Of a stretch of DNA of 36,632 bases, positions 12,417-27,633 are shown piece after piece; positions within the stretch are counted from its first letter, which is position 1, and the number at the start of each line of letters is the position of its first letter. Location: NCBI GenBank assembly GCA_025465035.1, contig JAODMH010000098.1, positions 1 to 36,632 on the forward strand, written 5' to 3'. The position numbers and the translations under genes are program-made. This DNA is from Microbacteriaceae bacterium. GTDB lineage: Bacteria; Actinomycetota; Actinomycetes; Actinomycetales; Microbacteriaceae. The notes beneath the pieces are model-generated. The model saw only the letters and a program-made list of their open reading frames with translations. It was not told where the DNA came from and did not search any database.

Positions 12417-13652
12417 ATGCCCGATCCTCGTCCACTCCCTCTGTGGGCAGGCCGTACCGTCGCCCTGCTGGGCATTCTGCTCGTCGCGCTGAACCTTCGT
12501 ACAGCGGTTGCGGTGATCTCGCCGATCGTCGCGGAAATCAACGTGGACATCCGGCTCGACAGCGTCGGCCTCGGCATTATCGGAGCCGTACCGCCGATCG
12601 CCTTCGCGCTCTCGGCACTGTTCGGCGCGCTGATCGCCAGGCGGACCGGGCTCGAGCGTCTGCTCGCCCTGGCGATCGTCGCCATGATCGTGGGCCAACT
12701 GCTCAGATCGGCCGCGACGAATTTCGCCGTCCTGCTGATCGGAAGTCTCATCGCGATGATCGGGGCCGGCATCGGAAATGTCCTCCTCCCACCCCTCGTG
12801 AAGCGGTACTTTCCCGATCGCATCGGACTGATGACATCCCTCTACGCGACACTGTTGGCGATCGGGACGGCGGTGACGGCGGCGCTCACCGCTCCGATAG
12901 CGAATTCGGTCGGCTGGCGGACGTCGCTTGCGGTCTGGTCGATCATGGCACTGACCGCGCTCGTCCCCTGGGTGACGATCCTGCTCAGACATCGTCGTGA
13001 TCGTGCCGCCGTCGCGGCAGACGAGGTCTCCGACCTCGAGGAGCCGTCGGCCGACGCGATCGGTCGCATCTGGCGCTCGAAGACGGCCTGGACGGTCGCG
13101 ATCGTCTTCGCGCTGTCGGCGTTCCACGTTTACGTGGCCTTCGCCTGGCTGCCCCAACTCCTCGTGGACATCGTGGGCGTTTCGCACGTTCAGGCGGGTG
13201 GCCTGCTCGCGCTCTACAGCATCGTCGGCCTGCCGTCAGCGCTGGTGGTTCCGCTGCTCACGGCGCGACTGAAGAACGTCGGCTGGGTCATCCAGAGCGG
13301 CGTGGCGGCATTCGTGCTCGGCTATCTCGGACTGCTACTGCTGCCGACGGTCCTGCCGTGGCTGTGGGTCGTGCTCATCGGCGCCGGCCCACTGCTCTTT
13401 CCCGCCGCGCTGACCCTCATCAATCTGCGCACGAGAACCCACGAGGGATCGGTGGCGCTGAGCGGGTTCGTGCAGACGGTCGGCTACGGGATTGGCGCCC
13501 TCGGACCCCTGCTCGTCGCGATGCTGCGCGGTCTCACCGGCGGCTGGACGGCCGTGCTCATCCTGCTGATCGTCACGGCGCTCCTCTGCGCTGTGGTCGG
13601 CGCCCGTTTGACGAAGCCGACCTTCGTCGAAGACGACGTGGCGCGTCCCTGA
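12417..13652 (+). CDS. MFS transporter (CynX/NimT-like)
   Basis: MPDPRPLPLWAGRTVALLGILLVALNLRTAVAVISPIVAEI, about 12 TM. TAGTAT lies 7 nt before ATG. Confidence 0.85.
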   Translation: MPDPRPLPLWAGRTVALLGILLVALNLRTAVAVISPIVAEINVDIRLDSVGLGIIGAVPPIAFALSALFGALIARRTGLERLLALAIVAMIVGQLLRSAATNFAVLLIGSLIAMIGAGIGNVLLPPLVKRYFPDRIGLMTSLYATLLAIGTAVTAALTAPIANSVGWRTSLAVWSIMALTALVPWVTILLRHRRDRAAVAADEVSDLEEPSADAIGRIWRSKTAWTVAIVFALSAFHVYVAFAWLPQLLVDIVGVSHVQAGGLLALYSIVGLPSALVVPLLTARLKNVGWVIQSGVAAFVLGYLGLLLLPTVLPWLWVVLIGAGPLLFPAALTLINLRTRTHEGSVALSGFVQTVGYGIGALGPLLVAMLRGLTGGWTAVLILLIVTALLCAVVGARLTKPTFVEDDVARP

Positions 13653-13681
13653 GGGTCTGCGCTACCGATCGTGCTTCCGGC

Positions 13682-13802
13682 GGCGGAGAAAAACCGTCGC
13701 GCGGCGGAGGTAAGCTCTCGCGGCGGAGATAGTGCCTCGGATGGCGGAGACACGTTCTCGCGGAGGGCGATATGACTCCCTCCGCGACGCGGTTTCTCCG
13801 CC
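13682..13802 (+). repeat. 121-bp structured intergenic element, copy A
   Basis: GGCGGAG at 13682, 13703, 13722 and 13743 (steps 21/19/21), then a hairpin ending in CTCCGCC at 13796-13802. By hand about 97/121 identical to the inverted copy B at 26553-26673, with no gaps. Confidence 0.9.
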
Positions 13803-13829
13803 GCCACTGCCCGCGTTCGGCGAGTGGCG

Positions 13830-14762
13830 CTACGCGACCAGTTGGGCGCGGTGCACGAGTGCCGCGGCACCGACCAGCGGTCCGTCGCTGGAGAGACCGG
13901 ATGGCACGATCTTTACCTTTGTGACAAAGGCGAACTGTCTGCGACGCGCGACAGCGGTTCTCATGTGATCGAAGAGGTCGGGAGTGACCTGAGAGAAACC
14001 GCCGCCGATCGCGACGACCTCGAGGTCGACGAGGGCCGTCGCCGAGGCGATGGCCTGCCCGATGGCGCGTCCGGAGCGTTCGATGGCGGCGGCGGCGACG
14101 GGGTCGCCCGCGCGGTAGCTCGCGCCCAGTTCTTCGCCTGTGTTGCCGGTCCAGCCATGACGGCGCGCCCAGGCGACGGTATGAGGGCCGGAGGCGATCG
14201 CCTCGACGCAGCCGATCCCGCCACACGGGCACGGATCGTCGAAGCCGGCAACCTCGATGTGCCCGATGTGACCGGCATTCCCGGTGGGGCCGGAGACGGT
14301 GTTGCCGTGCAGCACGAGTCCTCCGCCGATACCCGTCGAGATGATCATTCCCATCACATTGTCGTAACCGCGACCCGCGCCGACCCAGTGTTCTGCGAGG
14401 GCGATGCAGATCCCGTCCATCCTGAGGGTCACGGGGATGTCGGGTAGCGCCGCGACGATCTGGTCGCGCAACGGGTACTCGCGCCAGGCGGGAAGGTTGA
14501 GCGGCGACACCCGGCCTTCGGCTTCGTTGATCGGCCCAGCCGATCCCACACCCGCGCCGATGAGACTCGCGCCAGGCGGGACGGCGCCGAGGACGCTGCC
14601 GATGACCTCGTCGACCGACACGGCAAGCTGATCGGAACTGCGCTCTGGGCCCGTCGGTGCGCGAAACCGGCTGCCCGGCAGCACCCTTCCGGCTGGGTCG
14701 ACGAGGGCGGCCTCGACCTTGGTACCTCCGAGGTCGATGGCGATGGCGAAGTTCTGGGTCAC
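13830..14762 (-). CDS. ROK-family sugar kinase/regulator (glucokinase-like)
   Basis: FAIAIDLGGTKVEAALVDPAGRVL, GAGVGSAGPIN, GTGIGGGLVLHG, and ROK motif CPCGGIGCVEAIASGP. Confidence 0.92.
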   Translation of the reverse strand: MTQNFAIAIDLGGTKVEAALVDPAGRVLPGSRFRAPTGPERSSDQLAVSVDEVIGSVLGAVPPGASLIGAGVGSAGPINEAEGRVSPLNLPAWREYPLRDQIVAALPDIPVTLRMDGICIALAEHWVGAGRGYDNVMGMIISTGIGGGLVLHGNTVSGPTGNAGHIGHIEVAGFDDPCPCGGIGCVEAIASGPHTVAWARRHGWTGNTGEELGASYRAGDPVAAAAIERSGRAIGQAIASATALVDLEVVAIGGGFSQVTPDLFDHMRTAVARRRQFAFVTKVKIVPSGLSSDGPLVGAAALVHRAQLVA

Positions 14763-24837: not shown

Positions 24838-26523
24838 GTGGCCCGCGCCGACACGATTGGCAGGCGAGTCAGGCTCGAGAGATTGGGCCGAACAGTGACC
24901 GACATCCACCACCCAGCAGTCCCGAACACCATGGTTCCGACCACCGTCGTGCCGAGAACTCTGCCCATTACCGCCGCACCGGAGACCGGGTTCCCGACAT
25001 CGTCGATGGCGACACGTGCCGATCTCGTGCCGAGCAATGACAAGTTCGCCATCCTCAACGAACGGCTGACCCCTCGCGAGGCGATGGTCGAGGATCTGCT
25101 GTTCATCCGCAGGGTGTTGGAGAGTGCCGACATCGACTATCTGCTCATCCGCGGCAATGACACGCGACCCGTCATCGCCGTTGACCGCCGCGCGCGCAAG
25201 GCCCTACGCCGCGCTCTCGCGGCCGCCTGCGCGGAGGAGCCGTTCTATTCGAAGCCGGCCGACGGGGTACACGGACCAACGGTCCCGCTCGCCGATGGCA
25301 AGCTCGCCGCCGACAAGTCGACGCGTGCCTTCATCCTGTTCCGTCCGCGAATCACGCCGAACGGCGAACTGCGCTATGGGGCCGCAGCCGGCGTCCGCCT
25401 CGAACTCTGGACCTACGACTCGGAATTCATCACCGCACCCACCGAGAACTCGCTCATGAGGTTCGTGCTGCCCCGCACGGAGGCTCTGCGCGACACCGTC
25501 GAACTGCACGGCGAAAGTTGGCCGACACTCGCCGGCATGTTCGATCCGCAGGCCCGTGACATCGACTTCGACATCGACATCGTGTTCTCCTGGGTCGACG
25601 GTGCCGCGATCGAGTGGCAACGGGCCAGAGCCAGGCGGATGCGCAGTTACGTCGTCGGAGAGGGCGACGACTCGCAGGCCCGCTTCCGCCAGCTCGACGA
25701 GCTGAAATATGCCCTGCGTTCGGTCTACCTCTTCGCCCCCTGGGTGCGAAACATCTACGTCGTGACCGACTCGCCGAAGCCGGACTGGCTGGCCGAGCAT
25801 CCACGGGTCACGTTCGTGCCCAGCGAGCAGTTCTTCGCCGACCCCTCCGTGCTTCCCACTCACAACTCGCACGCCGTCGAGAGCCAGCTGCACCACATCC
25901 CGGGTCTCAGCGAGCACTTCCTCTATTCCAATGACGTCATGTTCTTCGGCCGCCCGGTCGGACCCGATCTGTTCTTCTCTCCCGGGGGCGTCACCAGGTT
26001 CATCGAGGCGACCACTCGCATCGGCATGGGGGACAGCAACATCGAGCGCAGCGGCTTCGAGAACGCGGCTCGGGTCAACCGACGCCTGCTGCGCGAACGC
26101 TTCGGACACACCATCACGCGGCATCTCGAGCACACCGCCGCCCCGCTGCGGAAGTCGGTGCTGCATGAGCTCGAGGCCGAATTCCCGGAGGACTTCGCCC
26201 GCACGGCTGCGAGTACCTTCCGGGCCGCGACGGACATCTCGGTGACGAACTCGCTCTACCACTACTACGCCCTGCTCACCGGGCGCGCGGTATTGCAGAC
26301 GGAGGCGAAGGTGCGTTACGTCGACACGACGATGCGCGTTGGGCTCACCGACATGACGAGGCTGTTGAGACGTCGGGATGTCGATCTGTTCTGTCTCAAC
26401 GACGGAAGCTTTCCCGAGCTGACCGTCGAAGAGCGCGCGGGTGCTGTGCGGGCGTTCCTCGAGGCCTACTACCCGATTCCGGCGCCATGGGAGCGTATTC
26501 CGGGCACGCCGACGGCCGTCTAG
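24838..26523 (+). CDS. Stealth-family phosphotransferase (capsular polysaccharide-type); start codon uncertain
   Basis: DIDIVFSWVDGAAIEWQRARARRM, ELKYALRSVYLFAPWVRNIYVVTDSPKPDWL, THNSHAVESQLHHIPGLSEHFLYSNDVMFFGRPV, consistent with Stealth conserved regions. Confidence 0.85.
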   Translation: MARADTIGRRVRLERLGRTVTDIHHPAVPNTMVPTTVVPRTLPITAAPETGFPTSSMATRADLVPSNDKFAILNERLTPREAMVEDLLFIRRVLESADIDYLLIRGNDTRPVIAVDRRARKALRRALAAACAEEPFYSKPADGVHGPTVPLADGKLAADKSTRAFILFRPRITPNGELRYGAAAGVRLELWTYDSEFITAPTENSLMRFVLPRTEALRDTVELHGESWPTLAGMFDPQARDIDFDIDIVFSWVDGAAIEWQRARARRMRSYVVGEGDDSQARFRQLDELKYALRSVYLFAPWVRNIYVVTDSPKPDWLAEHPRVTFVPSEQFFADPSVLPTHNSHAVESQLHHIPGLSEHFLYSNDVMFFGRPVGPDLFFSPGGVTRFIEATTRIGMGDSNIERSGFENAARVNRRLLRERFGHTITRHLEHTAAPLRKSVLHELEAEFPEDFARTAASTFRAATDISVTNSLYHYYALLTGRAVLQTEAKVRYVDTTMRVGLTDMTRLLRRRDVDLFCLNDGSFPELTVEERAGAVRAFLEAYYPIPAPWERIPGTPTAV

Positions 26524-26552: not shown

Positions 26553-26673
26553 GGCGGAGAAACCGCGTCGCGGACAGAGTAATAACCCCCTCCGCGACAA
26601 CGTATCTCCGCCGGTCGCGACACTTGCTCCGCCGCGGTCGGTTTACTCCGCCGCGGGGAGCTTTTTCTCCGCC
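26553..26673 (-). repeat. 121-bp structured intergenic element, copy B (inverted relative to copy A)
   Basis: CTCCGCC at 26606, 26627, 26646 and 26667 (steps 21/19/21) plus hairpin GGCGGAGA (26553-26560)/TCTCCGCC (26605-26612). Same total length and layout as copy A. Confidence 0.9.
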
Positions 26674-26688
26674 GCGATTGTCGGTCGG

Positions 26689-27633
26689 CTAGACCGTCGC
26701 GAGTTCCCGCGTCGGCGGATGCAGCTCTTCGTCCGGGGCCAGCGGTGGGGTACCGCTTTCCGGGATGACCACGCCGTTCGCGGCGAGGATGCGTGCTGTC
26801 TCTTCCGCCGTGACATACGAGACCGGCGCGTATTCACCGATCGGCACGACCGAATGCAGCACGGTGTTCTCGTAGACGTGGATGAGGTTGTAAGCCTGCG
26901 CTCCGTCCCGTCCGCGTGTTCCGCCCACCGGCACATTGAGGTCTTGTGTATAGCAGGTCGCCGAGGCGACGGAGACCGGCACACCGGCAAAAGTGGCGGT
27001 GGTCGAATAGTGCAGGTGGCCCGCGATAATGCCGCGGACATCCGAACCCTGGATGACCTCGGCGAGTCCATCCTGGTCACGCAACTCCACGAGAACCGCG
27101 AGATCGAGCACGCTCGGAACCGGCGGATGGTGCATGGCGATGATGGTTCCGTGCGGAGCTGGGATCGCGAGCTCCTCAGCGAGCCAGTCGAGCTGCGCGC
27201 CGGTCACCCGCCCGTAGTGGGACCCTGGCACCGTCGAGTCGAGGGCGATGATGCGCAGACCGTTGACGTAGTGCACGCGGTCGACCGGCGCGGTGGAGGG
27301 ATACTGGCCGAGCAGCCCTTCACGGAAGTGGCCCCTGTCGTCGTGGTTGCCCATCACCCAGATGACCTTGGCGCCCATGCGCGCCGCCACCGGATCGACG
27401 ATCGCCCGCAGCTTGGAGTATGCCTCCGGGTCGCCGTGGTCGGCGAGATCGCCGGTGAACACGATCGCCTCGGGACGTGACCCGGAGGCTTCGAGTTCGT
27501 CGAAGATCTGGCGGAGATGCGCCTCGCTGTCCACGGAACCGTAGAGGGGCCCCGGTCCGGCAACGAAATGCGTGTCGCTGAAGTGAAGGATGAAATGGTC
27601 GGGCCTCGAAAACTGGGCCGTATAACCGGTCAT
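26689..27633 (-). CDS. Metallophosphoesterase (CpdA-like phosphodiesterase)
   Basis: FILHFSDTHFVAGPGPLYG, VFTGDLADHGDPEAY, VMGNHDDRGHFREGLL, IAMHHPPVPS, IIAGHLHYSTTATFAGVPV. Confidence 0.92.
   Translation of the reverse strand: MTGYTAQFSRPDHFILHFSDTHFVAGPGPLYGSVDSEAHLRQIFDELEASGSRPEAIVFTGDLADHGDPEAYSKLRAIVDPVAARMGAKVIWVMGNHDDRGHFREGLLGQYPSTAPVDRVHYVNGLRIIALDSTVPGSHYGRVTGAQLDWLAEELAIPAPHGTIIAMHHPPVPSVLDLAVLVELRDQDGLAEVIQGSDVRGIIAGHLHYSTTATFAGVPVSVASATCYTQDLNVPVGGTRGRDGAQAYNLIHVYENTVLHSVVPIGEYAPVSYVTAEETARILAANGVVIPESGTPPLAPDEELHPPTRELATV

Follow-up and report, generated by a model that had tools for sequence, protein, structure and literature searches.

Two copies of a structured element between convergent genes

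The window, a stretch of 36,632 nucleotides from a Microbacteriaceae bacterium, carries two copies (A and B) of an intergenic element, each lying between convergent genes. Their features are as follows, with the evidence in brackets.

12417-13652, + strand: MFS transporter gene, converging on copy A from the left (Pfam MFS_1)
13679-13691, + strand: left terminal inverted repeat of copy A, GGCGGCGGAGAAA (position check)
13682-13702, + strand: outermost unit of copy A, 21 bp, GGCGGAGAAAAACCGTCGCGC (position check, unit-spacing walk, 121-column alignment)
13703-13721, + strand: middle unit of copy A, 19 bp, GGCGGAGGTAAGCTCTCGC (position check, unit-spacing walk, 121-column alignment)
13722-13742, + strand: core-adjacent unit of copy A, 21 bp, GGCGGAGATAGTGCCTCGGAT (position check, unit-spacing walk, 121-column alignment)
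13743-13802, + strand: 60-nt palindromic core of copy A, GGCGGAG-N8-TCGCGGA-N16-TCCGCGA-N8-CTCCGCC (covariance model, 74.0 bits; core alignment)
13793-13805, + strand: right terminal inverted repeat of copy A, TTTCTCCGCCGCC, with a conserved T-tract inside (position check)
13830-14762, - strand: ROK family gene, converging on copy A from the right (Pfam ROK)
24895-26523, + strand: Stealth-domain protein gene, converging on copy B from the left (Pfam Stealth_CR1-CR4)
26553-26612, - strand: 60-nt palindromic core of copy B (covariance model, 69.5 bits)
26613-26633, - strand: core-adjacent unit of copy B, 21 bp (position check, unit-spacing walk)
26634-26652, - strand: middle unit of copy B, 19 bp (position check, unit-spacing walk, ortholog comparison)
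26653-26673, - strand: outermost unit of copy B, 21 bp (position check, unit-spacing walk)
26689-27633, - strand: metallophosphoesterase gene, converging on copy B from the right (Pfam Metallophos)

An earlier note on this DNA had described copy A as four GGCGGAG units, the last of them opening a hairpin, with inverted repeats at the ends and a partner copy further on. This description proved accurate to the base. The heptamers start at 13682, 13703, 13722 and 13743 (+ strand) and the closing CTCCGCC lies at 13796-13802; the end repeats are exact reverse complements, and the palindrome was confirmed at 13743-13802. The second 121-bp copy, at 26553-26673, has the same structure on the opposite strand with zero indels relative to copy A, and a recount of the spacer identities gave the same figures (10/14, 6/12 and 7/14). 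Copies A and B align without gaps at 80% identity, and their flanks align poorly. Folding compared to dinucleotide shuffles gave z = -5.8 and -8.4 for A and B, respectively, and the TCGCGGCGG...CCGCCGCGA ends were found again in other copies. The architecture of the two copies is not a chance pattern. The true conserved unit is the 60-nt palindrome at 13743-13802, and the upstream units form an arm of variable number.

The null explanation raised by the note was a segmental duplication, in which a single intergenic region of the window, flanks included, would recently have been copied. A and B, 12.8 kb apart, are the most similar non-orthologous 121-bp pair, as such an event would predict. However, their flanking genes are unrelated, 31 further cores lie elsewhere in the genome, and the site of copy A is empty in relatives (see below). 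This explanation was therefore rejected, and we give it practically no credence.

Size and distribution of the family

The window's genome (G000) is a MAG of 2.99 Mb in 229 contigs, 92% complete with 4.1% contamination. G206, a close relative of the same genus, is the MAG 'Microbacteriaceae bacterium isolate RYN_102' (JAODMW). Both MAGs have two diverged pdxT-yebC loci (contigs C60 and C207 of G000, C28 and C104 of G206), those of G000 being 84-87% identical, which means that G000 and G206 are mixtures of related genotypes and that the copy counts given here are for the mixture.

GGCGGAG pairs 8-25 bp apart numbered 51 in G000, against 12 for a reversed control pattern. The exact three-unit 21/19 array was found 8 times in G000, and neither in the control nor in 199 other family genomes. 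A genome-wide search extended to related genera, as the note had proposed, yielded 33 cores in G000 with the covariance model (66 strand hits), and more in relatives. Over 23 copies, 23 of the 60 core columns are invariant and the remainder vary at constant length. With the same model, 7 of the 13 genus genomes carried cores (G000, G206, G193, G202, G203, G076 and G204); none was detected in the six other members among the best 150 candidates scored per genome, so that their absence is not absolute. Matches to the model were present in 4 of 110 family genomes (G000 and G076 from this genus, G022 and G053 from two other genera), and to the exact palindrome pattern in 7 of 400. Scanning GTDB R220 with the exact core pattern returned RYN_102 only, the window's own genome being possibly absent from that scan.

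No Rfam family was found above the gathering threshold in the window, and the literature on palindromic repeats in Microbacteriaceae and actinobacteria yielded no description of a core-plus-arm family. The 60-nt core with its 21/19 arm is a repeat family without an earlier name. Mobile-replicon cargo was rejected, as neither plasmids searched with copy A nor viral contigs searched with the exact core pattern gave a match. A dispersed 7-mer of the uptake-sequence type was also rejected, GGCGGAG being found 326 times outside the elements compared to 280 expected.

Elements are placed at gene 3′ ends

Genes were called with a simple codon-model caller (91% coding). Of the 30 G000 elements for which both neighbours were available, 14 are flanked by convergent genes, 15 by codirectional and 1 by divergent ones. 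The corresponding numbers for element-free intergenic regions of at least 60 bp, drawn from contigs partly chosen for carrying elements, are 20, 135 and 64, which corresponds to an enrichment at convergent positions (Fisher test, p = 1.9×10−6) and a depletion at divergent ones (p = 0.0014). The remaining G000 elements were called inside a gene (one) or at contig edges (two), and the placement of L064 was re-assigned by hand because yebC, which runs forward, had been mis-called. The location at gene 3′ ends is that expected for an intrinsic terminator.

The cores of G053 read GCAAGCGGAGGGAGC-TACA-GCTCCCTCCGCTTGC-TTTTTT between GCGGGAGAAA and TCTCCCGC arms, that is, a stem of 15-16 bp followed by T6. 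A terminator pattern scan was positive in 3 of 4 G053 loci tested. In the negative one, L232, the A and T tracts are able to pair with each other, and this symmetric form was probably hidden from the scan for that reason. By its sequence, the G053 core has the textbook form of an intrinsic terminator. The G000 cores have an inner stem of 12 bp or slightly longer, their first TTT (conserved, columns 51-53) lies 1-5 nt below it, and no TTT follows the stem in 24 of 58 strand-readings; the terminator scan of the window left copy A uncalled. The role suggested in the note, that of a bidirectional terminator, is supported by the position at 3′ ends, the convergent genes and the canonical terminators of a related genus. 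We infer that the ancestral core was probably a bidirectional terminator, and that the G000 copies may still act as 3′-end hairpins, possibly with lower precision or with the help of a protein acting on the arm. Termination of transcription is predicted for the G000 copies.

Pairing in the core is backed by two-sided changes across the genus

Covariation was analysed in 74 cores, mostly from seven genus genomes, plus one G022 copy. The core of L115/L157 (G203, contig C13) was left out; the 320 bp displayed around it seem to form an almost perfect inverted repeat, which probably arose when the assembly folded back on itself. Two-sided changes were found in 21 of the 29 pairs, with 152 two-sided cells compared to 91 +/− 9 after shuffling, a value that 0 of 500 shuffles matched. 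All five pairing measures were above shuffles, and slid controls were lower. Each core segment was paired above shuffles (the A-tract at p = 0.049 only), and the inner core spacers were mostly unpaired. Pair 23/38 was seen as G-C, C-G and U-A; L119 of G204 has ACCCAG/CTGGGT in place of AGGGAG/CTCCCT, and the orthologs L172 and L074 have GGATGG/CCATCC and GGACGG/CCGTCC, respectively. The commonest two-sided change genus-wide, at pair 6/55 (A-T in G000, G-C in G193 and others), may represent few events. In the 23 cores of G000 and G206 alone, paired cells and two-sided changes were no higher than in shuffles, so that the covariation is strong and two-sided in the genus-wide set only. Since a dyad protein site, or palindrome repair during replication, also gives paired change, these results back the symmetry strongly and RNA less.

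A tandem arm with rigid spacing

In most G000 copies, GGCGGAG units of about 20 bp each stand in tandem on one side of the core. Counting outward, their spacing is 21 (34 of 35 cases), 19 (25 of 26), 21 (21 of 24), and mixed beyond. Among the 47 elements of G000 and G206, 12 have no extra unit, 9 have one, 2 have two, 17 have three and 7 have four. Seventeen copies from the two genomes, four of which are the orthologous pdxT-yebC copies and some of which have a fourth unit further out, align gap-free over exactly 121 columns, and the median identity of the 121-bp copies is 68%. The arm spacers are near random (median identity 0.39, versus 0.30 expected from composition) and the heptamers are kept. 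The note had suggested from the spacing that binding might occur on one face of the DNA; the 21/19 alternation makes a 40-bp period of about 3.8 helical turns, a non-integer number. Read by eye, the tandem units of L127 (G204) are spaced about 20/22/20/22 instead, and the G193 array at the site of copy B resembles repeated half-cores. When the whole 121-bp consensus was folded, the core formed and, besides it, just a single weak hairpin between units; the arm was devoid of covariation. Two unlinked elements, L044 (6199-6219) and L051 (8298-8318), have the identical unit GGCGGAACAACCGCTCTGGGC, which suggests exchange or copying between elements.

Our best guess for the unit array is a putative protein-binding or alternative-pairing module working together with the hairpin. 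Alternatively, the whole element could be a protein-binding array, for a nucleoid protein, a segregation factor or an orphan transposase, made of dyad half-sites and 40-bp direct repeats, and its symmetry would then be that of DNA, not of an RNA hairpin. Heptamers that are invariant amid spacers random in sequence and fixed in length fit this proposal, and so do the unpaired core spacers and the null covariation within G000 and G206; the change at pair 6/55 could even be a single switch of binding specificity. It agrees poorly, however, with two-sided changes spread over 21 pairs, loop-proximal and spacer positions included, with a heptamer hardly enriched outside the elements, and with the homologous T6 terminators of G053, which binding alone hardly accounts for. 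We consider such an array quite unlikely.

Occupied and empty orthologous sites

G000 has the element at the MFS/ROK junction (site A). G206 does not: its two stop codons overlap there as CTAG. In G193 and G204 the spacers are short and the element is absent (L207, L208 and L210 for the G206, G193 and G204 set). With three relatives empty at this site, the simplest view is that copy A was gained in the lineage of G000. The Stealth/metallophosphoesterase junction (site B), occupied in two relatives, has 3 units in G000, 1 in G206 (40 bp, or two units, shorter) and an array in G193; the element is absent there in G203, G202, G076, G140 and G200. The pdxT-yebC junction is occupied by 3-4 units in four genotypes, two per MAG, and the element is absent in G140. 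For most G206 copies, the orthologous G000 site is occupied.

Other palindromes were seen at these junctions. L209 (G201), the site A ortholog 3′ of the MFS gene, has a different palindrome with TTTCGGGACGA/TCGTCCCGAAA ends, and unrelated palindromes are thus found at the MFS gene junction in different species. Upstream of yebC, L082 (G202) and L085 (G203) have another hairpin, TTTCGGCGGG...CCCGCCGAAA, between pdxT and yebC. A distinct palindromic repeat family, TCCGAAATGACGGAGATTCTGC...AATCTCCGTCATTTCGGA, is present in G200, another species of the genus (L105, L098, L108 and L111), with one copy just upstream of yebC, near the site of the G000/G206 element.

Signs of mobility

The note had proposed a non-autonomous repeat of the REP or MITE kind. 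A non-autonomous dispersed repeat is what the 33 cores and the occupied and empty sites indicate. The REP part did not hold: the Y1/RAYT transposase (PF01797) was found in 0 of the 13 genus genomes (G000 being 92% complete), compared to 5 of 14 control genomes, and a RAYT-associated REP/REPIN was rejected on this basis. As in MITEs, terminal inverted repeats (GGCGGCGGAGAAA and TTTCTCCGCCGCC in copy A) stand at the element ends. Flanking direct repeats of 47 elements, sought as target-site duplications, did not exceed in length those of shuffled pairings (p = 0.23), with only a weak GCGCTAC repeat in the site A flanks, and inverted repeats extending into the flanks were weak (p = 0.04). As in BOX elements, a constant module is joined to a variable number of units (0, 1, 3 or 4, rarely 2), which also differs between orthologous loci (3 against 1 at site B, 3-4 at pdxT-yebC).

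These data bear on the possibility of a purely selfish MITE- or BOX-like element, moved by a transposase, without host function and kept at 3′ ends since insertion is harmless there. It would explain the patchy distribution by covariance model (7 of 13 genus genomes, 4 of 110 family genomes), the empty orthologous sites and the terminal inverted repeats, and excerpts of PMC3049150 report the same convergent-gene bias for BOX, RUP and SPRITE. Nevertheless, the 47 elements gave no target-site duplication signal, near-identical recent copies were not found (the 68% median identity of the 121-bp copies), the sites orthologous to most G206 copies are filled in G000, and heptamers and lengths are frozen amid near-random spacers, which suggests lasting constraint. 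In our view, a purely selfish element is somewhat unlikely.

Discussion

Each property of the family is matched separately by BOX, SPRITE or BrickBuilt, as far as excerpts of PMC3049150 and PMC4596501 describe them. BOX elements of Streptococcus pneumoniae combine constant end modules with internal modules varying by strain and are over-represented between convergent genes. Like the present elements, they are dispersed, intergenic, structured and modular; however, they belong to another phylum and consist of boxA, boxB and boxC modules, not of ∼20-bp 21/19 units beside a 60-nt palindrome (excerpts of PMC3049150). There, it is SPRITE, not BOX, that is likened to a terminator: it resembles a Rho-independent terminator, is strongly enriched between convergent genes and has about 30 copies. 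It differs in its 18-bp duplex followed by a U-rich tract, with no tandem heptamer arm in the excerpted description, whereas the T-tract is off the stem in G000. The BrickBuilt MITE of Porphyromonas gingivalis, with 19 intergenic copies, shares a tandem minisatellite (23 nt) within a dispersed inverted-repeat element, but has a single repeat period, leader and tail subunits, and no terminator-like core in the excerpts of PMC4596501. REP/REPIN are also multi-copy extragenic palindromes, associated with RAYT; the present genus lacks a Y1/RAYT gene, and units, size and architecture are unlike (PMC3116915, PMC8266576). Our literature search turned up no family in which a terminator core carries a rigid 21/19 arm, and none described in Microbacteriaceae. 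With properties known singly and a combination not found in the literature, this is a new form of small dispersed structured bacterial repeat.

Our best reading places the family among BOX/MITE-like dispersed elements, as a new one: its core would be a terminator-like hairpin that works in both directions and, in this genus, has departed from the canonical form. These small non-coding elements are dispersed at the 3′ ends of genes, in one genus of the Microbacteriaceae and in two other genera of the family. Their 60-nt imperfect palindrome would form a GC-rich hairpin on either strand, with A-tract and T-tract arms alongside, and would end or trim transcripts coming from both directions; such a two-way stop would place the element between convergent genes and keep it away from divergent promoters. 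The GGCGGAG units, in rigid 21/19 alternation, would expand or contract, by a 40-bp pair at one orthologous site, and new copies presumably arise by copying into new sites. This scheme of 3′-end hairpins acting both ways, with an expandable arm, is one that we would accept or doubt in equal measure. A bolder version, a mobile modular terminator in which the phased 40-bp array recruits a lineage-specific factor, the element spreads to convergent junctions, and motif and factor co-evolve between species, seems improbable to us.

How transcripts end in GC-rich actinobacteria and how small bacterial repeats originate are both poorly known, and this family connects the two. Its core appears as a canonical terminator in one genus; in another it is found in many copies, as a modular repeat equipped with a rigid tandem arm. 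With orthologous sites at which the element is present, absent or different by 40 bp, termination and dispersal both become testable.
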